Assembly (NCBI GenBank): GCA_001872625.1
Contig: MNXP01000021.1
Span: 1 to 64,000 of the forward strand
DNA: 64,000 nt
Source of the DNA: Bacteroidetes bacterium CG2_30_33_31
GTDB lineage: Bacteria; Bacteroidota; Bacteroidia; Bacteroidales; UBA1556
Direction of reading: 5' to 3'
Shown here in pieces: positions 13,441 through 39,596 of the stretch (position 1 is the first letter of the stretch; every line of letters begins with the position of its first letter). A program made the position numbers and the translations under genes. The notes below the pieces were generated by a model. It saw only the letters and a list, made by a program, of their open reading frames with translations, ran no database searches and was not told the origin of the DNA.

Positions 13441-15810
13441 ATGAACATAAAATTATTATTCTTTAGTTTTGGACTGCTTTTATTTTGGCAATTAGCAGCC
13501 TATGGACAAACTACAAATTTAAAGGGATTTGTAAAAGATTCAAAATCAAATCAATCTATTGATGGAGCTACGATTTATTTTCCAACCTTAAAATTAGGTT
13601 GTATCTCAGAATTGGATGGATTATATAAAGTTGATAATATACCTTTTGGAAAATACAAAGTGGTTGTAAAGCACATTGGCTACATTACATTGGGGAAAGA
13701 AATTGAAATCTCGAAAGCTAAAGAGAATAATATTGATTTTTCATTAGAAATGGAGGTCAAAGAATTATTAGGCATTGAGATTAAAAATGATTTGGACTTC
13801 AATCAAACTTTCATAAAAATCACAATAAAAAAATCCAATATTGAGGAAAATTCAGTGCGGGATATTGGAGAATTGCTAAGAACTATTCCAAATATTCAGG
13901 CAGTAAGAAAAGGAGGAGCCAATCTTGATCCAGTTATTCGGGGCTTTAAATTCGACCAGCTAAATGTGCAACTTGATAATGGAATGACGGTTGAGGGTGG
14001 ATGTCCAAACCGAATGGATCCTACAACTTCTCATGTGGAAGCGGAGGATATAGAATCTATTGAAGTGTTGAAAGGCCCTTTTACATTGCGCTATGGGCCT
14101 GTAATGGGAGGTGTTGTTAATCTTAATACTTTAAATCCACGGCCTTTCGACAAGTTTGAAATTCATGTTAAAGGAAATATTAGTTATGAAAGCAATTGGA
14201 ATGGTACTCGCCAACATTTTGCAGTATTGGGTGGTAATAAAAAGTTTTTTTTCACATTTACAGGAAACAATTCAGTTTATGGTGATTATGAAGATGGTGA
14301 AAACAATTCAGTTCCATCTTCTTTTCGAAAATTTGGAGTAACTGGTAAATTAGGATTTGCTATTAAAAAAAATCAAATAATCACTGCATCCTATTCTGAA
14401 TTTTATGCTCGAAATATTAGTTTTCCTACTTTACCAATGGATGAAAGAAAAGACAACACAAAACTTTATTCTTTGGACTATAAAGCAAGAAATATTTCTA
14501 AATTAATTGAAACCATCAACATTAAATCTTATTTTACCGATGTTGATCATACGATGGATAATTATGAGCGAAGTTCAAGTGATAGCATGGCTTCAGTTTC
14601 TCATATTCTTGCTACTCGTTTAGGTTATAGAGCTGAGATTGGCCTAAATGCTTTTACTGGTCACTTATTCGTTGGAACCGATTTTTACAAGATTAATAAA
14701 GATGGAGACAGAGTAAAGAATTTAATTATGCAAATGCCAACTTCTGCTGGTGTGGTACCTATTAAAGTTGAAGATCTTTGGAATAAAGCAGTAATTAATG
14801 ATTTTGGATTTTTTAGCGAATATACTAAGAGAAAAGGGAGTTGGGAATATGTTGGTGCAGTAAGAATTGATTATAATTCAGCTTTTTGTGATTCGATAAA
14901 CTTAAAAAATACAGCAGGTGCTTCCATATTAAGGGTTATTGCTGACAGTACAATTTCAAGCTATTTAAATTTTAGTTTTAGCCTTGGCGCTACAAAAATG
15001 TTGTCAGAAAAGATGAGCTTATGAGCATCTTTTGGTAGAGGAACAAGAAGTCCTAATATGATTGAAAGGTTTATTATACAGCTTCCAGTGAGTTTTGATA
15101 ACTTCGAATATATTGGAAACCCACTGTTAAAGCCTGAAACGAATAATGAGTTTGATTTGGTTCTCAAATATAAGGATTACAAATGGGGTGTCTTTGAGTT
15201 GACTGGATTCTATTCATTAGTAGAAAATTATATTGATGGTGTTTATTTGCCAAAATCTATAGTAAAACCTTTAACTGCTAAGGTTTACGGAGTAAAGAAA
15301 TTTGAAAATACTGGAACGGCAAGTTTGTATGGTTTTGAATATTCATATAAATCTCCTATTCAACATAAACTTCAGGGATTCCTAACTGCGGCTTATACTT
15401 TTGGAGTTCATAAGGAAGTTACTGTTTTAACTTTTGACGCCACCAATAATCCAATAAGCAGTCAAAAGGTTGAAAATGACCCTCTATCTGAAATTCCTCC
15501 TATGAATATTAATTTTGGAATTGTTTACGAACTGCTGAATGGTATCATCATTCCAAAAATTAATATGAGATATATGGCTAAGCAAAATAAAATATCTACA
15601 GCTCAATTCGAAATTCCTACTGATGCAGCTTCAGTATTAAATGTTTCTTTAACTTACAAGCAGAGTCAGGCATTAAGCATTGTTGGAGGTATCACCAATT
15701 TAATGAATAGCACTTATTATGAACATTTAAATAGAAGAATACTAGGAACATCCACTCGAATGTACGAACCAGGTAGAGTTTTTTATATCAATATGATTTT
15801 TAACTTATAG
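13441..15810 (+). pseudogene. TonB-dependent receptor, OprC/copper-receptor-like, interrupted by an in-frame TGA at 15022-15024
   Basis: CarboxypepD_reg-like N-terminus, plug GGCPNRMDPTTSHVEAEDIESIEVLKGPFTLRYGPVMGGVVNLNT; ORFs 13441..15024 and 15058..15810 share one frame and join as ...MSL*ASFGRGTRSPNMIERF... Confidence 0.82.
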
Positions 15811-25897: not shown

Positions 25898-28681
25898 TTA
25901 ATAGTGCCCGTTTAATAGGGAATAAATAATTAAAATAACTAATGCAATTCCAGTAAACAAGAAAATGTATCCAAATGTTCTAATTAGTTTCATCCAAGAA
26001 GCAGAAAATTCTTTCTTTACCGTAACTTTATCCAATTTTCCAGCTTTTTCTAATTCGTCATATTCTTTTGGGCGGTCTTTTTTATATTCTTCTATTGGCA
26101 CATGTCCTGTAAAAATAACTGTATCCATTGGAAAAGACTCAGGGCGTAGATGTGTGTTAAAGAAATGAATTGTAAAAATAAATCCAACGGCAAGCAAAGC
26201 TTCATCACTGTGAATTATTTGAGCCACATTTATTACCCAACCTGATAGAAACTTGGTAAAAAATTCAGGCTGCCATAAGATTAATCCCGATAAACCAATA
26301 ACTGCAACTCCCCAAAATACAGCCATGTAATCGAATTTTTCCCAATAAGTCCATCGCCCGTAATATGGTCGAGGGCCTTTCCCTAAAAACCATTTAACAG
26401 TTGCAACAAAGTCTTTAATATCTTGTTTATTAAACATTAATGAATTTTTACCGAAGATAAATGCCATAGGTTTAATTTTTTCTTTAACCATTGTTTTGAT
26501 AAGCGAAGCCACATGGAAAATAAAATATCCGAATGTTATAACGGCTGCAAAACGATGGATATTACCAGCAATACTAACTCCTCCAACTATTTTTGCTAAA
26601 TTATATGCCCATTCCATGTGAGCAAATTTTAACATCATACCAGTTAATGCCAAAAGTATAAAACTTAATATTACAAATATGTGAGTGATGCGTTGGCTCT
26701 TTTTAAATCTACGGAAATATATTGCTTCGCCTTTTGGCATTGGGTGTTTTTTCTTTTTTCGCGCTTCCATAATCGATCGTGGTATCCATAAAAGTGTATG
26801 TAAGCCAAAGAATCCAAATACACCAAGTAATAATGATGTCATTGCCCAAAATGTATAATAAAGAACTTTGTTGTCATTGTGTGTAGCATGAGTCAAATAT
26901 CCTGCAAATTCAACTGTTGCACCTTCATGGCATTTTTTACACGTCTTTACAATATTTTTTTGCCCTACACTCGATTCAAGATTAGAAATCTTTAATATTT
27001 TATGAGCGCCATGACAATCGGAGCATCGGGCAGCTTTTAAATATCCTAAGGTATAAGCTTTTCCATGGTATGTTTCCATATAAGTCTCCGATAATTTTTT
27101 ATGGCAGCTTCCACATTGAAGAGTGATTTGAGTAAGAAATTTATCTTTATCAATTTCTGTAATTGTATGTGCTGTATGACAATTTGCACAAGTTGGAAAT
27201 ATTTTACCTTTACTGTTATTTTTTATTGAATGATCGCTATTCATGTAATCATCATAAATGCTTTTATGACATTTTGCACAGGTAGCAGGAACATTTTTTG
27301 GATTTACAGTTGAATTTTTATCCGATTCTTTTAATATGTTGTGTGATGTATGGCAATCAGTACAAATAGCACTCGAAAGCAATCCTTTATCTTTTAAACC
27401 TTTGCCATGTACACTTGATTTGTAATCGCTAAAAGCATTTATTTCTTTTAAATGTGTTTTAATTGTCGCTTTTCCGTTTTTTTGATGACATTTGCCGCAC
27501 ATATCAGGAATTAATGCTCTGTACGTTGGTGATGTGTCGTCATATCTTGTTTTAATTTTGTGTGTTCCATGGCAATCGGTACAATAAGGAGCATTAGATT
27601 TTTTTGCAAAATATGCCTTTCCATGATCGCTGTTAATATACACATTTGAAACTTGTTCGTGACAATTTGAACAATCAACTTTTTTGACTGTTGCACATGG
27701 TCGTACTTTATTGTTTGATATGGTAACGTCGGAATGACATTTTGTACATCCAATACTTTTATGTACAGAATTTTGAATATCCGATTTGTCAATTTTTAAA
27801 GATATTTTTTTGCCCCCTTTGGTGGTTTTAAAGGTATTATTTCCTTCGTGACATTTTAAACAAATTTGGTTCGAAACTGTTTCCTCAATTTTCGTAATTT
27901 TTACAATATGTGATGGATGGCAATCTGAACATGCTGGAACAGAGCCTGCCTTCTTTTCCCAAAGTTCTCGCTTAATTACTTTCGTGTGTACTTTCTCTAT
28001 TCGTGCATGACATTTCATGCAAGTTTTTGCAATATTTTTGCTATTTATCGAGGAATTTGGACTTGAATGAGGTAATATTAAATGATTTTCGTGGCAATCG
28101 TTACATGTTGCTGTAACAATAAGTCCACTTTTATACAAGCCTTTACCATGAATACTTTCACTATAATGTTTTAAAATATTACTTTGAGGAATGTTATATA
28201 ATCTGGCAATTGGCGAACCTTCTTTATGGCATTTCCCGCATAATATCGGAATATTCATTTTATAAGTTCGAGATAGTGGGTTTGTCCTGCTTAAAATATC
28301 ATGATTACCATGGCACTCTTTACAGCTAGGTGCATAAGGTGCATTTAATTTCAAGGCCTGTCCGTGAATGCCTTTTAAAAATTGAAATTGTGAATTTTTA
28401 TGGCAACTACCGCAATCTACAAGTTTTAAATTTTCGGGATGAGGAAATTCTTTTACTGCTGCATCTTTATGGCATGAGGTACAAAGTACTTTCTTATGTA
28501 CCGACTGAGAAATCTTATTATTTACATATAATGAAACAACTTTACCATGACTTGTTTTTGACAAGGTCTCATCACTATGGCACATAAAGCAGTCATCATT
28601 CGACTGCGAAAACAAGTTTGATGGGTGAAAGGGAAATCCTACTGCCAACAAAAATAAAAATATTCTAAACTTTTTTAACAT
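25898..28681 (-). CDS. 19-heme cytochrome c / cytochrome b561-type membrane fusion (CbcL-like architecture)
   Basis: 19 CxxCH motifs counted in residues 31-585, then a polytopic cytochrome b-type domain with conserved His (RITHIFVILSFILLALTGMMLKF, GNIHRFAAV, FHVASL, FDYMAVFWGVAVIGLSGLILW). Confidence 0.88.
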   Translation of the reverse strand: MLKKFRIFLFLLAVGFPFHPSNLFSQSNDDCFMCHSDETLSKTSHGKVVSLYVNNKISQSVHKKVLCTSCHKDAAVKEFPHPENLKLVDCGSCHKNSQFQFLKGIHGQALKLNAPYAPSCKECHGNHDILSRTNPLSRTYKMNIPILCGKCHKEGSPIARLYNIPQSNILKHYSESIHGKGLYKSGLIVTATCNDCHENHLILPHSSPNSSINSKNIAKTCMKCHARIEKVHTKVIKRELWEKKAGSVPACSDCHPSHIVKITKIEETVSNQICLKCHEGNNTFKTTKGGKKISLKIDKSDIQNSVHKSIGCTKCHSDVTISNNKVRPCATVKKVDCSNCHEQVSNVYINSDHGKAYFAKKSNAPYCTDCHGTHKIKTRYDDTSPTYRALIPDMCGKCHQKNGKATIKTHLKEINAFSDYKSSVHGKGLKDKGLLSSAICTDCHTSHNILKESDKNSTVNPKNVPATCAKCHKSIYDDYMNSDHSIKNNSKGKIFPTCANCHTAHTITEIDKDKFLTQITLQCGSCHKKLSETYMETYHGKAYTLGYLKAARCSDCHGAHKILKISNLESSVGQKNIVKTCKKCHEGATVEFAGYLTHATHNDNKVLYYTFWAMTSLLLGVFGFFGLHTLLWIPRSIMEARKKKKHPMPKGEAIYFRRFKKSQRITHIFVILSFILLALTGMMLKFAHMEWAYNLAKIVGGVSIAGNIHRFAAVITFGYFIFHVASLIKTMVKEKIKPMAFIFGKNSLMFNKQDIKDFVATVKWFLGKGPRPYYGRWTYWEKFDYMAVFWGVAVIGLSGLILWQPEFFTKFLSGWVINVAQIIHSDEALLAVGFIFTIHFFNTHLRPESFPMDTVIFTGHVPIEEYKKDRPKEYDELEKAGKLDKVTVKKEFSASWMKLIRTFGYIFLFTGIALVILIIYSLLNGHY

Positions 28682-30901: not shown

Positions 30902-33900
30902 TTAAAATCTGTCTGAAAATACCTTAGACTTATAATATTTAATGCCTGCTGAAATTATCAGAATAAAGATAGAGATAACGATGATTTTTGAGTACAAGGG
31001 GATTGCAAAAGCTTCACCAGCGCCATAAGAATGCATTCCTGATAGGAAGTAATTTACTCCGAAGAAAGTCATTAAAATACTTCCAAAGCCTAAAACAGCT
31101 CCTGTACTAACTACAAATGAGGATTTGAAGCCTGGAATATGTCTTAAATGACCAATGAAAGTATAAACTAAAATGCTTACCAATGCCCATGTTTCTTTGG
31201 GATCCCAACCCCAATAACGACCCCAAGATTCATTGGCCCAAACAGCTCCCAAAAATGTTCCGATAGTTAAAAGGTATAAACCAATTATCTGCGCCATTTC
31301 AATAATTGAGGATAGCTCTTTTATTGTTGGGAGCAGCTTTTCTGTGTTTCTTTCGTTGGTGGAAAGTAATAATATATGAATTAGCAAGCCCATTAAAGCT
31401 ATTAAAGCGAAAAAGCCATAGCTTGAAGTTATTACAGCTACATGTATAATTAGCCAATAACTTTTTAATACTGGCACCAAATTAGTAATTTCTGGATCCA
31501 TCCAACTTAAACCAGATATCAATATTAGTATGGCTGCAAGAATTGCAGTAAGTGCCAAGCTGATTGTGGATCTTTTGGCGAATAAAATTCCAGCCAATAC
31601 TGTTGCCCAAGCTATAAAAAGTGTTGTCTCATAGCCATTGCTCCATGGTGCATGCCCTGAAATATACCATCTTAAACCTAAAATTGCTGTTTGGAGTATG
31701 AATAGTAGAACAATCAAACTCATTGCACTATTTATTATCCACTTTATTTTCAGCTTGTTATTAAAAAGTTTTACAAACAAAGAAATGAGAAGAACTAATC
31801 CAAATACAAGATATAGTTTTGAAGCGTATTTAAAGAAATTTACTTTGTTGTAAAATACCTCCGCATCAACTTTTGCTGCTGGTGGCAGCTTATTTCCGCC
31901 AAATTTTTTCTGATATGCGAAAATTTTATCTAATGCAATATCAGCATTTTTCCAGTCACCAGATTGTATAGCTGATTTCACACTGCCGTAATACTGGCCA
32001 TATAAATCTATTATTAATGCTTTTTGTTCTTTGTTTCCATCCTGATTCATTTCTGTTGCTGCAATCCATTTTCCAGTGCTATCACCAGGTAAAGGGAAAA
32101 AATTAAATAAACTTCCAGTAGATAACATTAAACTCAAATTTACTTTTTCGTCAAGTTTTAGTATTTCTTTATCATATTTGGTTCTAAGGTCTGCTTCTTT
32201 TTGATATATCTGATCTACTTCAGTTTTAATTAAATAGAGATCATAACTGCCTGGGGGCAATATTTGATTTATAGAAACTCTGTCGGAATTAAAATTGTAT
32301 TTCTTTATAATTTCACTATTGGAAATTTTGATAGTAGGAACGTTTTCCCACAGTTCTTGATTCATCATCATTGATAGAAAAAGCTCTGTTGAGGTATAAC
32401 CATCAATAGAATTTTCTCGCATTATCTTCCTGTTAATTTCTGAGGCAAAAGTACTTATTGGTTTTATCCTCCCTATCGGGTCAGCGATTAGCAAATGACC
32501 AAATCTTTCTGCATGTTTGTGGTTTATATTGTTTGCTGGTGGATTTTGTATAGGACTATTTGGTTGAGCTTGGCTGCTAAAGGCGGTAAATGTGCCAAGT
32601 AAAAATATTACTGCTATTTTGCTGTTTCTGTGCAAAAGTTCTCTGAAATGACTTTTTTTGGAAAATAAGGCTAAGAACATTCCAACGACCATTAAAGAAT
32701 ATCCTAAATAAGTTACAATGGTTCCTATTGGATCGTAATTAACCGATAGAATTGTTCCGTTTTCATCTTCATCATAGGATGACTGAAAAAACCTGTATCC
32801 TTTGTAATTCAAGATGTTGTTCATAAAAATACTAAATTCTTTTATCTCCTTGCCAGATTCATCAACAAGAGTGATATTGCTTTTAAAAGATGATGGGCTC
32901 ATGGAATTAACGTATCTTTCAATTATAAAATCATCGAGCTTTAATGCAAAAGGCAGCTTAATAATTTCTGATCCGTAGGATATTTTAAAAGAGGCATCCG
33001 AGAAATTAACTATTTCTTCATCACCAGCCAAATTTTCCGCACCGAAAACGTATTGTTCCTTTTTTTCTTCTCCATAGGAAATATCTAATTTTAGTGCATT
33101 CAATGGGTAATTTCCCGAATGCTCAGTCATCGAAACAACTTTTATTATTGCCGATGGATAATAATTTTTAATGGCGAAGCTATTATATGCTACTTGGTAT
33201 AAAATATTATTAAGTGTTTTATGAATTGAATCAGGTGCAAGTTTTTGATGTTCCATGTTAATCATATCCACCTGATAAATCATTTCTTTGCTTTTTAAAT
33301 ATAGGCTATCATCTTTTTCTATGAAAATAATATCGGCATTTGGATTATCACTAAAGGAATATGTAATATTTCCAAAAACGTAATCCTCGCCTTTATTTAA
33401 AAAAATATTTTTAAATTGAAATGAAGAATCTGAAATAGAAAGTGCGATAGTTTTCTTGCCTTCGGGTGAATCTTGTGCCATTTTAGCTGCATTCAGAATA
33501 AAATCTGATTGTTTAATTTGCAAAGTTTTGCTGCCTATATTGGTCGAAAATGCTTCCATGGCTTTTATTCCTAAGCTGCTTTTTATTGCTTGCGAATAAA
33601 TAGTTGAATCTGATTTGTTAACTGTTAGAGAAGTTTTTGCCGTGGTAATAATATTTGAAGATTCGCCTTCTCTTATGTGCATAAATCCCTCATAACTAAA
33701 ATATCTGGTAATACCTGCGCCAATAATTATTACGACGAATGAAAGATGAAATAATATCAACGACCATTTTTTGTTTGCTAATGATTTATACTTTACCAAA
33801 CTACCTAATAAATTTGCGCAAAGTAGAAAAAGCAATATTTCGAACCAACGGGCATCGTACACTAAGTTTCGAGCAGCATCTACACCTGTATTGTTCTCTA

Positions 33901-33991
33901 CAAATGTGGCATATCCGATGGCTATGGCAAAAATTATAAGCAATATTGCTGAAAATGCCATCGAAAAAAAAACTGAAAATAATTTCTTCAT
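30902..33991 (-). CDS. ccsBA: System II cytochrome c biogenesis ResB-CcsA fusion protein
   Basis: N-terminal ResB-like region; C-terminal CcsA WWD motif [34 protein letters not shown]. Confidence 0.93.
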   Translation of the reverse strand: [1029 protein letters not shown]

Positions 33992-34218: not shown

Positions 34219-34839
34219 CTAATGATTATCTTCATGCCAGCCAGTGATAATTGACTTAAAATTTTTAAACGGCTTTTTCCCAATTGTACAAAAATAAATA
34301 TGCACAAATAGAAAAATCGAAACAATAAAACCACCAATTATATGCAGCATATCTGTAATAAATATTCCGCTGGTTTTTTGTAATTGATTTATTACTATCT
34401 CTGGAAACAATAATCCGAAGCCTGAAATTATTAATATTGGGAGCACTAAATACATTATTACCACATAGGAAAATTGCTGTAGAGGGTTAAATTTATTTGA
34501 CTCATTTATGGGAAAAGGAGGGGCTTCACCTTTGAAAATTCCAATTGAATAATAATATGATTGTTTCATCAGCTTGCTGATATATCCTTTAATTCTAAAA
34601 ATATAATGCTTGCTGTTTCCCGTGATAATATTTCCAACAATAAAAATAATATAATTAAATGCTAATAGAATTCCGCAGATATTATGAATAGCAACAGCCA
34701 AATCAAACCTCATAAATGGATATAAAGGATCTGAATATTGTAAGCTTATCCCTGTAATTATTAAAAATATTATAGCTAATGCATTTATTAAATGCCAAAT
34801 ACGTATTAATAATGGATATAAATATATTTTTGTGGACAT
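34219..34839 (-). CDS. b-type cytochrome (cytochrome b561 / Ni-Fe hydrogenase cyt b type)
   Basis: RIWHLINALAIIFLIITGISLQY, VAIHNICGILLAF, DMLHIIGGFIVSIFLFVHIYFC. Confidence 0.85.
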   Translation of the reverse strand: MSTKIYLYPLLIRIWHLINALAIIFLIITGISLQYSDPLYPFMRFDLAVAIHNICGILLAFNYIIFIVGNIITGNSKHYIFRIKGYISKLMKQSYYYSIGIFKGEAPPFPINESNKFNPLQQFSYVVIMYLVLPILIISGFGLLFPEIVINQLQKTSGIFITDMLHIIGGFIVSIFLFVHIYFCTIGKKPFKNFKSIITGWHEDNH

Positions 34840-34843
34840 GGAG

Positions 34844-35785
34844 TTATTTTTTAAGTATTATGCGTATAAAGGCATGAATAAAAATTATTAAAAGCACTAA
34901 TGAGAAAATACTAATACTTATAGAATTCAAATAGAAGTTCCTATTAGCACCAATTACAAAAGAATTCTTTAGCAAAACCCCATTAAAAAATCCGAATTTA
35001 TTTCTATTTTCTTTTATGTCATGCTTATATAGCGATGACATTAATAATGAATTATCCGAATGGCATTTCACACAAAGTTTTACCGCCTTTTCTTTTCCCA
35101 AAATGCGATGTGGTACTTTCAAGCTATCATTTTGCTGAGCATGACATTCCAAACATCTAACCTTTTTAAAATGTAATTCACGGTTTGGTAGCCAACTATG
35201 AGATTTTTCATCAATGGATGCAGTGCTATCTGACAGCAAATAGAATTTATTTTCTGTGTAATTATGACAATTTAAGCACATGTGATTACTGTAATCTACA
35301 ATTTTGTTAATATCAGTTTTGTTACGGGCATTCAACTCGTAATAATGCTGTTTATGGCATCTCTCACAATTAAAATCTTCGCCCATCAATTTACCATGAA
35401 TGCTCTTTTTAACTTCAACTTCAATCTCTTCAAAATGAAATTTTGCAAAAGTTTCGTCACTACCATGGCAGTCGAGGCAAGTATTTTTCGCCTCTAATTT
35501 TAATTCAGCTTTGTGTGGATAAATTTCATATTCAGTTGCATGACAATCAGTACATTGAAAACTTTTATGTACACCTTTCTTGTAAAGAGTTTTATTTATA
35601 ATAAAATATGGATTCATCCTATGATGAACTTCTTTGTCAATTACCCTATTATAGAATTTATAATAATCATTTCCATGACACTTCAAACACTTGTTATTAT
35701 TTGGTATCACAGTTTGAGTGAAAGAAGTAACAACTAAAAATAAGGCTAAAATACTTAAGCTTAAGCTTTTGTTAATTATACACAT
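34844..35785 (-). CDS. Membrane-anchored heptaheme cytochrome c
   Basis: Seven CxxCH (CLKCH, CTDCH, CLDCH, CERCH, CLNCH, CLECH, CVKCH), signal peptide, C-terminal TM. Confidence 0.88.
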   Translation of the reverse strand: MCIINKSLSLSILALFLVVTSFTQTVIPNNNKCLKCHGNDYYKFYNRVIDKEVHHRMNPYFIINKTLYKKGVHKSFQCTDCHATEYEIYPHKAELKLEAKNTCLDCHGSDETFAKFHFEEIEVEVKKSIHGKLMGEDFNCERCHKQHYYELNARNKTDINKIVDYSNHMCLNCHNYTENKFYLLSDSTASIDEKSHSWLPNRELHFKKVRCLECHAQQNDSLKVPHRILGKEKAVKLCVKCHSDNSLLMSSLYKHDIKENRNKFGFFNGVLLKNSFVIGANRNFYLNSISISIFSLVLLIIFIHAFIRIILKK

Positions 35786-35847: not shown

Positions 35848-36264
35848 CTACTTTTTCAAAGTTCTCATATAATTTATTAAAGCCCAGCGGTCATTCTCGC
35901 TTAAAATTTTCTTTTCAAAATTAGGCATTTCGGTACGACCAACAATTGCTTCGTAATAAATTTCACCATCTGATTGTCCTTGAAATTTTGCAGATGAAAA
36001 ATCACCGCAATTTGTTTTAAGTGTTTTAGATCTTGGGCTATCTCCTTTACCCAAAGCTCCGTGGCAAGTTTTGCAATATTTGCTGTAAAGTGATTTTCCA
36101 GTATCGACATTTTTACCTGGAATTGGATTTTTCATACTCTTATATTTTGCTGGAATTGTCCAGGGCGCTGCTGCTTTCTGTTGTGGTACCGAAAAAGCAA
36201 AAACAATGATTATTGCTAATGTAGAAACAGATGCAAGAACTAATTTACTAAATTGTGTTTTCAT
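35848..36264 (-). CDS. Monoheme class I cytochrome c
   Basis: GKSLYSKYCKTCHGALGKGDSP...GRTEMPNFEKKILSENDRWALINYMRTL. Confidence 0.92.
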   Translation of the reverse strand: MKTQFSKLVLASVSTLAIIIVFAFSVPQQKAAAPWTIPAKYKSMKNPIPGKNVDTGKSLYSKYCKTCHGALGKGDSPRSKTLKTNCGDFSSAKFQGQSDGEIYYEAIVGRTEMPNFEKKILSENDRWALINYMRTLKK

Positions 36265-36294: not shown

Positions 36295-37215
36295 TTAAAA
36301 GCTCCAAATTCGAGTTATTACAAAACCAAATGCCATACCACCTTTAGTGAAATCATTTACATTATGCATAATAATTTCTTGTGGCAAAATGCCAGCAGAT
36401 GTTCCAATAAATATTTGGAATGCATGAGCGCTCGTAGCTATTTCCAATCCAAATGCTAAATTTGGTTTAGGAGGATTTGTAAATGGTATATTTTCTGACA
36501 TAGATTTTAAATTCAATGGCATATCGTAAGTAAAAATAAATGATCCTTGAGGAGAAAATTTCATTTTGCCATTAAAATGTATCGCAATTTTATCATGTTC
36601 CATCAATGAATCAACAGCGTTGAAGTGTGTAAAACTCGCAGCGGCTTGTAGGCTTAGCCATTCATTAAATTTTCTACTAATAATGAGTTGTGAGAAGTAT
36701 GCCACCCTATCCCCAAATGAATAGGTTTTTCCAAATGCTGTTTTGTTTCTCGAATCAAAAGCCATATCGCCAAATAGTGATACTGCTATTGGAATAGTAT
36801 TTTTCCTAGTTTGCTCAAGAATTGTCCACTTAATATTAAAGTCGTTATACATATTCAACTTTGAAATACCCCAACCTAATTGTAGGTTTTTCAATATCAC
36901 ATAGTTGATGCCCATTCTGATATTAGCTCCTGGTGCATAAATACCCCATAAATCCCCAATACCGTTGGTGGACATAGAGCCAAAACGATGCTGAATTACA
37001 TACTCCAAAGTCTTAGATGATGGAATATAGGTCGTTTGTGCATCAATTAAATAGCCGCTGGAGAATGTTTCGCTAACGGGCTCATCTATAATAGATTCTT
37101 CTTCTATAGCTGCTGCTGTATCTACTACAACAACATTTGTATCTGTTTCAATTTCCTGAGCTGATATTCTTGTAGAAAATATCAACAAAAAAATGGAGAT
37201 TAATATTTTATTCAT
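36295..37215 (-). CDS. DUF5777-like outer-membrane beta-barrel protein
   Basis: Signal peptide; LEYVIQHRFGSM..IGDLWGIYAPGANIRMGINYVILKNLQLGWGISK pattern, alternating amphipathic strands. Confidence 0.75.
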   Translation of the reverse strand: MNKILISIFLLIFSTRISAQEIETDTNVVVVDTAAAIEEESIIDEPVSETFSSGYLIDAQTTYIPSSKTLEYVIQHRFGSMSTNGIGDLWGIYAPGANIRMGINYVILKNLQLGWGISKLNMYNDFNIKWTILEQTRKNTIPIAVSLFGDMAFDSRNKTAFGKTYSFGDRVAYFSQLIISRKFNEWLSLQAAASFTHFNAVDSLMEHDKIAIHFNGKMKFSPQGSFIFTYDMPLNLKSMSENIPFTNPPKPNLAFGLEIATSAHAFQIFIGTSAGILPQEIIMHNVNDFTKGGMAFGFVITRIWSF

Positions 37216-37225
37216 TTTCAGTGTA

Positions 37226-37600
37226 TTAATTGTTTTTTGCTCCTTGAGTTATCCACATTAAAATGATTGCAGCTTGATTATCAGTGTATTTTTTCCAACT
37301 GTGTGTAGATGTAGAGGCTAAAGGATGTTGATAAAGTTTGCTTTGAGCAGGGTCAGTGAGATTCAATAAACCCATAGAAGTTATTTCGCTGTATGCTGCG
37401 CTTGCAGATAAGTCTGGCCTTGTGCTTCCAGATTTGTGGCAACTAATACAAGTGGCATCAGAAAATATAGGCACCACTTGAGTGGCAAACTTTACTGTGT
37501 CTGTGGGATTTATAATAACCCCACTTTCTTTTATATTATATTTATAAGTGCAACTTCCAAAGAATAGCATTACAAATATTATCAAAAAAATTTTTTTCAT
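37226..37600 (-). CDS. Monoheme cytochrome c lipoprotein
   Basis: Lipobox FGSCTY; ATQVVPIFSDATCISCHKSGSTRPDLS. Confidence 0.85.
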   Translation of the reverse strand: MKKIFLIIFVMLFFGSCTYKYNIKESGVIINPTDTVKFATQVVPIFSDATCISCHKSGSTRPDLSASAAYSEITSMGLLNLTDPAQSKLYQHPLASTSTHSWKKYTDNQAAIILMWITQGAKNN

Positions 37601-37747: not shown

Positions 37748-38776
37748 TTATTTCTTAGCTGCTGCTATAGAATTTTCAAGAAGCTTTTTAGCATAGTTGA
37801 AATTATGTACACCTTTACTTTTATCTTCCATAACAAATTGATAATTGTATATAATTCCAGCATTGTCATTAGTATAAGTGCCAGTTACAACATTACCAGA
37901 AGCAGTCATATATCCTTTGGTTACTAAAATTGTTTTTAGGCTATCCAATAAATTTTGAGTTGTAGCTTGAGTGGCAATAATTTTATTCTTCAAGGAAGTT
38001 GCATCTGCATGGCAAGAAGTGCATCCTGCTGTATTTACTGTACCAGATGTTCCATACCTCATGCCTAATTGATGACCACCAGCTTGATTACCATAAGCTT
38101 TAGCCATGTGACATTGAACGCATGAATTGCTAACCATGGTAGTATGAGATGAATTTATATAACCTGTTCCTAATTCATATCCACCAGTACCATTAAATAA
38201 GTTTCCCTGAGGGCCATGATGAGTTCCATAACGAAAGCTCGTAATTGTAATAGTTGCAGACCCTTGAGATAAATCCCACATTGGATCAGGTTTTCTAATC
38301 TGATGACAATTAATACATAAATTAGCTTTTCCTTGATCGCTTGTAATTCCATTTACTTTGAAAACTACAGGAGTTGTTGCTGTCAAAGCCCAATCATCTT
38401 GCGTGTAAGTTGTGTGAATTTTGTGGCATGTGTAGCAATTTTGAGGATTTGGATTGCTAATCACGCTTGCACATACTTCAGCTCCAGTTTTGAGAACTTC
38501 TAAAAAACCTTGGCTTGTATGACAAGGTGCACAATCAACGGCATTTCTTGCATAATTTCCATTTACTGCATGCCCAGAAGCTGCCCATTGATTGCTTTTT
38601 TCGAAAATATTCTGTGAATTGTCGTGACATTTGATACAATCCACTGTCCCATTAGTTCCATTGGTACCATTAGTACCGTTGATGCCTGCAGGACCTTGAG
38701 GTCCCTCTTTAGTGCAGGATGCTATTATTAGTGTACTTAGAACTAATAATGCTGTAATTTTTTGTAATGATTTCAC
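37748..38776 (-). CDS. Hexaheme cytochrome c lipoprotein with collagen-like Gly-X-Y linker
   Basis: Lipobox IASCTK, GPQGPAGINGTNGTNGTNGT, six CxxCH (CIKCH, CAPCH, CYTCH, CINCH, CVQCH, CTSCH). Confidence 0.88.
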   Translation of the reverse strand: MKSLQKITALLVLSTLIIASCTKEGPQGPAGINGTNGTNGTNGTVDCIKCHDNSQNIFEKSNQWAASGHAVNGNYARNAVDCAPCHTSQGFLEVLKTGAEVCASVISNPNPQNCYTCHKIHTTYTQDDWALTATTPVVFKVNGITSDQGKANLCINCHQIRKPDPMWDLSQGSATITITSFRYGTHHGPQGNLFNGTGGYELGTGYINSSHTTMVSNSCVQCHMAKAYGNQAGGHQLGMRYGTSGTVNTAGCTSCHADATSLKNKIIATQATTQNLLDSLKTILVTKGYMTASGNVVTGTYTNDNAGIIYNYQFVMEDKSKGVHNFNYAKKLLENSIAAAKK

Positions 38777-38815
38777 TTGTATTTATATTTAATTTATAAA
38801 TTGTTAATTAGATAA

Positions 38816-38846
38816 CAAAATTATTTTTTGTTTTGCATCTAACAAT
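38816..38846 (-). promoter_or_regulatory. Candidate Bacteroidota sigma-ABfr promoter for the cytochrome gene cluster
   Basis: Minus strand ATTG-N19-TAATTTTG, matching TTTG-N19-21-TAnnTTTG with one mismatch at -33. Confidence 0.5.
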
Positions 38847-38858
38847 GATATAAATCAA
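38845..38858. promoter_or_regulatory. FNR-type box 1 (ATGAT-ataa-ATCAA, one mismatch)
   Basis: Compared with TTGAT-N4-ATCAA consensus. Confidence 0.55.
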
Positions 38859-38865
38859 AGCAAAA

Positions 38866-38879
38866 TTGATATATATCAA
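38866..38879. promoter_or_regulatory. FNR-type box 2 (perfect TTGAT-atat-ATCAA)
   Basis: Exact match to TTGAT-N4-ATCAA; centre 21 bp from box 1. Confidence 0.7.
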
Positions 38880-38894
38880 CAATGTGAAAAAATG

Positions 38895-39596
38895 TTAATT
38901 ATATTGACTTAACTTCTTGAGTTCATTTAAGTTATGTATTTCAAAATCATCTCCCTTAATTGAAATAATTTTATCTTCTTTATAGCTTTTCAGGATACGA
39001 ATCATGCACTCTTTAGATAAGGCACAAAAATCTGCCAAGTCTTGTCTCTTTAATGTTGTAGTGAATTTATTACTCTTATATATAATTGTAGAAAGATAAA
39101 TTATCATATCGGCAACTCTTGCATACATTGTCTTAGAGGTTAAATCGATGGTTCTATTTTTAGATTTAATGGCAAGTTGGTTTAATCTTTTTAATAAGGA
39201 AAGACTGAATTTAATGTTTGTTTCCAATACCTGTTTAAATGAATTTACTTCAAGTAAACATACCTTAATGTCTGTTATTGCTTGGAAGGATGAATGATGA
39301 ATTTCATCTACATAAAGGCCTGTAATTCCAAAAATATCTCCTGGCTGACTTATTCCAATAAGTAAGGTTTTGCCTTGGTGAGCTTCCGCAGTGATTTTTA
39401 CAAACCCTTCTCTTAAGCAAGCTATATGTGTAATTGCAGTAGATTGTTTGAAAATAGTTTCACCTGCTTTAAACTCAACTTCGCGTCTATGATAAAAAAG
39501 TATTTCTTTATTTTCTTTAGATAAATCGTTATATAGCAATGGCTTAACGGGGCAGCAGCATTCATTGCAATTTTCGTATTGAGCACAGTCAAACAT
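38895..39596 (-). CDS. Crp/Fnr-family regulator with Cys-rich N-terminus (FNR-like)
   Basis: MFDCAQYENCNECCCP, cNMP-like beta roll, SSFQAITDIKVCLLEV, C-terminal HTH with LSKECMIRILKSYKE; start moved to ATG 39596. Confidence 0.88.
   Translation of the reverse strand: MFDCAQYENCNECCCPVKPLLYNDLSKENKEILFYHRREVEFKAGETIFKQSTAITHIACLREGFVKITAEAHQGKTLLIGISQPGDIFGITGLYVDEIHHSSFQAITDIKVCLLEVNSFKQVLETNIKFSLSLLKRLNQLAIKSKNRTIDLTSKTMYARVADMIIYLSTIIYKSNKFTTTLKRQDLADFCALSKECMIRILKSYKEDKIISIKGDDFEIHNLNELKKLSQYN

Follow-up and report, generated by a model that had tools for sequence, protein, structure and literature searches.

Does the pair of FNR-type palindromes in front of a cytochrome operon form the switch through which the neighboring regulator controls that operon? 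The question arises from a 64,000-nucleotide stretch of Bacteroidales DNA, here called the window, in which a gene for a CRP/FNR-type regulator (REG) borders a cluster of cytochrome genes. The gap between REG and the first cluster gene, which encodes a hexaheme lipoprotein, is 118 bp long and holds both palindromes, with everything on the minus strand. Positions below are relative to a predicted transcription start site (TSS).

38895..39596, minus strand: CRP/FNR-type regulator REG, 233 aa, with N-terminal CNECCC and C113, the equivalent of FNR Cys122
38866..38879, minus strand: distal FNR-type palindrome TTGATATATATCAA, perfect, centre at about -61; the pair is conserved at 21-22 bp
38845..38858, minus strand: proximal FNR-type palindrome ATGATATAAATCAA (TTGATTTATATCAT on the minus strand), one mismatch, centre at about -40, conserved in relatives
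38843..38845, minus strand: -33-like TTG, sharing one base with the proximal box and preceding the -7 box by 19 bp
38816..38823, minus strand: putative -7 promoter element TAATTTTG of the sigma-ABfr type TAnnTTTG, assigned by sequence, with a near-identical offset in relatives

The initial annotation described this layout correctly. It had placed a perfect FNR box at 38866-38879 and a one-mismatch box at 38845-38858, and TTGATATATATCAA and ATGATATAAATCAA there have no mismatch and one mismatch to the consensus, respectively. The claimed distance of 21 bp between the box centres is the distance in the sequence. The minus-strand -7 box claimed at 38823-38816 is TAATTTTG, the sole perfect TAnnTTTG within the gap. 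The FNR-like gene was said to end 16 bp past the boxes, and the REG stop codon lies at 38895-38897. The boxes were also said to stand 5' of cytochrome genes; the gap opens onto the hexaheme lipoprotein gene (start at 38776), which heads the cytochrome operon. The cluster includes the following genes.

37748..38776, minus strand: hexaheme lipoprotein with a collagen-like GxY stretch, first cluster gene (Mtrc-MtrF_II-IV, 3.8e-10); orthologs adjoin REG
37226..37600, minus strand: small heme-motif lipoprotein (lipo124), kept in the cluster order
36295..37215, minus strand: DUF5777 membrane beta-barrel protein (Pfam PF19089, 1.4e-72)
35848..36264, minus strand: monoheme cytochrome c (Cytochrome_CBB3, 2.8e-11)
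34844..35785, minus strand: seven-heme cytochrome with a C-terminal hydrophobic anchor (Cytochrom_c3_2, 1.5e-11); co-occurs with REG
34219..34839, minus strand: cytochrome b561-type membrane subunit (Ni_hydr_CYTB, 1.9e-24)
30902..33991, minus strand: CcsBA-type cytochrome c assembly protein (Cytochrom_C_asm, 2.6e-37; ResB, 6.2e-20), also in the clusters at L035 and L036

This gene order recurs beside REG in many Bacteroidales families, with REG either codirectional with the cluster or divergent from it. Homologues of REG across genomes were found with an alignment-based search; a single-protein query gave no match. Among 394 genomes of the order, REG is present in 67 of the 80 that have the seven-heme cytochrome (odds ratio 18, Fisher p 1.5e-24), and in 57 of these 67 the two genes lie no more than 12 kb apart on one contig. 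Like the cluster, porin-cytochrome conduits (Mtr/Omb/Ext) combine a beta-barrel gene with multiheme lipoproteins, cytochromes and a cytochrome b membrane subunit. The barrel of the cluster is assigned to DUF5777 rather than to MtrB, OmbB, ExtB or ExtI, and the cluster is a candidate for such a conduit. No paper naming DUF5777 was found in the literature searched.

Several features of the locus and its relatives stand apart from the question of control. The collagen-like stretch CTKEGPQGPAGINGTNGTNGTNGT directly follows the lipid-attachment Cys of the hexaheme lipoprotein, is shared with distant homologs (L215, L221), and is possibly a surface stalk. Window positions 25898-28681 encode a multiheme cytochrome of 927 aa that includes a membrane cytochrome b part; in other families (L037, L039), homologs with 19 heme motifs lie inside the REG cluster. 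At 13441-15810, a TonB-type receptor is seemingly interrupted by a frameshift or an assembly error, which leaves one ORF at 13441-15024 and another at 15058-15810. Three records titled Alphaproteobacteria, Clostridia and Chitinophaga (L086, L098, L144) have a Bacteroidales-type REG cluster, and the bins are probably mislabelled.

REG has the cNMP-binding-type fold and Crp-type helix-turn-helix expected of the superfamily (cNMP_binding PF00027, 3e-16; HTH_Crp_2 PF13545, 9.7e-9). FNR binds its cluster through four Cys residues, the N-terminal Cys 20, 23 and 29 and Cys122. In an alignment with Aliivibrio FNR (5CVR, 1.2e-9), the CxxC of REG falls on the FNR N-terminal Cys and C113 falls on Cys122. 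All 81 REG relatives have C113 and at least two N-terminal Cys. C60 is present in 57 of the 81; of the 24 that lack it, 22 carry three or more N-terminal Cys, a pattern which suggests that a fourth cluster ligand may move between places among these proteins. REG probably carries a [4Fe-4S] cluster. In the recognition helix, FNR E209 and R213 are kept, and S212 is replaced by Ile (SKECMIRI in REG, SKESAIRI in relatives). REG scores below the cut-off of the NCBIfam curated FNR model NF008365 (52.6 vs 228 bits). Because it fails this model and lacks Ser212, REG is called FNR-like and not FNR; judged by its sequence, it is a distant FNR relative. The solved structure closest to REG is that of another Crp/Fnr-family protein, 2gau (1e-31 with the profile, 2e-15 with the window protein). 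Although 2gau is the best sequence match among solved structures, the alignment begins after the Cys-rich N-terminus, and no 2gau Cys is aligned to C113.

A box by itself is unremarkable in this AT-rich genome. The window contains 15 boxes with no more than one mismatch, compared to 10.7 expected, and 15 were reached in 9 of 100 shuffles. The scan of the genome for TTGAT-N4-ATCAA that the initial annotation proposed did return perfect boxes, but not above chance: the 2.87-Mb genome has 11, the majority within ORFs, and by our own estimate about 12 are expected from base composition. Single-box scanning was therefore ruled out as evidence for regulator sites. Unlike the lone box, the 35-bp tandem is significant. 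It occurs only once in the 2.87 Mb with no more than one mismatch, and three times with no more than three mismatches, compared to none for a reversed-pattern control. In 394 genomes, a tandem scan allowing two mismatches gave matches in 91, many of them within genes, and the scan is therefore nonspecific when used alone. A few of its matches lie at REG loci (G075, G111, G050, G165, G260, G371), and some adjoin other cytochrome genes (L215, L216, L219).

Phylogenetic footprinting was based on 70 REG-cluster gaps, representing 56 non-redundant Bacteroidales loci in which REG borders the same cluster. Pairs matching at least 16 of 20 positions were found at a spacing of 21 bp in 19 of the 56 loci and at 22 bp in 18, compared to 1, 0 and 0 at 20, 23 and 24 bp. 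Dinucleotide shuffles gave about 0.2 such pairs at any spacing (maximum 2). At a threshold of 17 of 20, the REG gaps contain 12 pairs at 21 bp and 9 at 22 bp; in the control, only 2 of 128 other gaps of the same loci contain a pair at either spacing. No pair scoring at least 15 was found in 15 of the 56 loci, Marinifilum and Ancylomarina among them. Single boxes matching at least 9 of 10 positions are present in 37 of the 56 REG gaps, compared to 3.2 in shuffled sequence. Upstream of the first cluster gene in clusters without an adjacent REG, no such box was found in any of nine loci (L223-L230, L234), which are few and in part related to one another; a hand-computed Fisher test of this difference gives about 2e-4. 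Thus, the boxes appear to follow the regulator. The initial annotation had named footprinting as a check, with a lack of conservation of both boxes counting against it, and the pair proved to be conserved. Its reading of the palindromes as FNR-type sites of the adjacent regulator, positioned for control of the cytochrome genes, gains strong support from this conservation, from the absence of boxes without REG, and from the fixed -7 box. It is very likely, from these comparisons, that the pair is the control switch of REG.

The position of the promoter relative to the boxes takes one of two values. The -7 element TAnnTTTG is centred at -7 (PMC7366714). With the centre of the -7 box taken as -7, the TSS in the window is predicted at about 38812, with the site centres around -40 and -61. 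These values differ by no more than 2 bp from the TSS near 38810 and the sites at -41.5 and -62.5 claimed earlier. Counted between the first positions of the proximal box and the -7 box, the offset is 35 in the window and 36 in L068, L070 and L077, and these loci group with L069 and L071 in a single clade (support 100/92). ATCATTGTTA at the -33-like TTG is common to the window, L070, L071 and L077. L075, an unrelated divergent locus, also scored at the -7 box distance of the window clade. A -7 box matching at least 5 of 6 positions lies at exactly 69 in 22 of 41 non-redundant tandem loci, compared to no more than 6 at any offset in shuffles. Loci with the offset of 69 have a third right half-site, AAAnnTCA, matching a box at +22; half-sites of at least 4 of 5 occur in 15 of 25 at +22 and in none at +20, +21 or +23. 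The predicted site centres in these other lineages are about -51, -73 and -95.

In E. coli, the majority of sites at FNR-activated promoters are centred at -41.5 +/- 4 (PMC3688515). The proximal site, at about -40 of the predicted TSS, would fall within this class II range, with the offset kept in the window clade only. The earlier class II plus class I label thus suits the positions in the window's own clade (35-36 bp) but is not general elsewhere. Since the promoter lies 33 bp further away and a third half-site is present in most other lineages, the general feature appears to be a phased array and not E. coli-style positions. Where the third half-site is present, an array is a better fit to the sequences than two classic positions; on this reading, the more basic feature is an array of regulator dimers in phase. 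The conserved pair and its spacing, the promoter offset, the linkage of REG to the cluster, and the loss of boxes without REG all come from comparison among loci.

These observations make it likely that the boxes are the operator of the cytochrome operon, bound by two REG dimers that switch the operon on at low oxygen. The two dimers of the adjacent FNR-like REG would sit next to each other on one face of the helix, separated by two turns. In the window lineage, this array would abut the sigma-ABfr promoter (-33 TTG, -7 TAATTTTG). The proximal dimer, near -40, may touch RNA polymerase in the manner of a class II activator in E. coli, and the distal dimer, near -61, may stabilize the proximal dimer by cooperative binding and/or contact the alpha subunit. 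REG, probably with a [4Fe-4S] cluster, would turn the operon on when oxygen is low. That pairs keep strictly to 21-22 bp and are nearly absent at 20 and 23 bp speaks for dimer-dimer or RNA polymerase contact. In E. coli, the alpha-CTD of RNA polymerase binds immediately upstream of the activator at class II promoters, presumably about where the distal REG dimer would sit. For this reason, it may be wrong to treat the two sites as a class I and a class II site working independently. We infer binding, cooperativity, activation and not repression, the Fe-S cluster, oxygen sensing, and the electron acceptor of the operon.

The comparison with E. coli FNR shows both kinship and divergence. The consensus TTGATnnnnATCAA, a CRP-fold regulator, an N-terminal CxxC and a Cys equivalent to Cys122 are shared, as are a site near -40 (predicted here) and target genes of the anaerobic-respiration type with E. 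coli class II promoters. Unlike the E. coli system, the one described here pairs neighboring sites at a fixed distance of 21-22 bp and has a putative sigma-ABfr promoter, and the regulator is local and pathway-linked with no visible global regulon. REG further differs in having Ile in place of Ser212 and in that its further N-terminal ligand is not fixed.

Other explanations for the palindromes are considerably less probable. The boxes could be bound mainly by another CRP/FNR paralog, with REG having a different role. The genome of the window encodes five HTH_Crp_2 proteins, REG and four further CRP/FNR-type proteins. One of these, the L178 protein, is a candidate general FNR with N-terminal Cys and VVC at the Cys122 position, and a recognition helix with E and R is shared. 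However, the boxes are absent from the nine clusters without REG even though G020 and G137 have other regulators of the superfamily. The remainder of the genome also has no more perfect boxes than chance would give, unlike the trace expected of a global FNR with this consensus. Binding mainly by a paralog is therefore unlikely. It is marginally less likely still that the pair is a repressor operator, at which REG, bound beside the -33 region, would silence the operon in a certain condition. The proximal box and the -33-like TTG have one base in common, and position alone is compatible with either sign of regulation. Against repression, most sites at E. coli FNR-activated promoters are centred at -41.5 +/- 4 (PMC3688515), and in most other lineages the boxes lie further from the promoter (offset 69), where simple occlusion is unlikely.

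Another thought is that the palindromes form a terminator or hairpins where the REG transcript ends, or arose by chance, given that 16 bp separate them from the REG stop codon in an AT-rich genome with single boxes at chance level. Yet the 21-22 bp spacing is far above shuffles and control gaps, and the pair is kept in many loci where REG diverges from the cluster and the boxes are 5' of REG. The divergent loci rule out the terminator or hairpin, and the explanation as a whole is very improbable. Control of the operon by REG dimers bound to the pair is the preferred reading.

The arrangement hints at a use wider than one operon, based on tandems at three further loci. In G102, a 21-bp tandem precedes the gene of a pentaheme homolog that has no linkage to REG (L215), and another precedes a NapC/NirT-type hexaheme gene (L219). 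At L216:3090-3124, a 21-bp tandem perfect at all 20 positions separates an FNR-like gene from an octaheme Cytochrome_cB gene, with cytochrome b561 and molybdopterin oxidoreductase genes as neighbors. In the genome of the window, a perfect single box (L059:3990-4003) precedes a hybrid sensor kinase gene by 41 bp.

A limited literature search found no paper describing an FNR-type operator in Bacteroidota. The operator predicted here is convincing, testable and of a familiar kind, and is undescribed in the literature searched. It is conceivable, as a tentative generalization, that a Bacteroidales class of FNR-like regulators reads arrays of two to three boxes (21-22 bp) cooperatively, with promoters at two distances (35-36 and 69 bp), to control an uncharacterised DUF5777-type conduit for extracellular electron transfer. 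Labilibaculum manganireducens (L117) has the same regulator and cluster, and no clear pair was found in its gap. This species reduces Mn and Fe oxides, and the authors of that work could not name the genes (PMC5760507). At this locus, the geometry of a predicted regulator, its operator and its promoter is conserved, and nature offers two versions of it for comparison. The operon that these elements would control is a candidate route for electron export in Bacteroidales.
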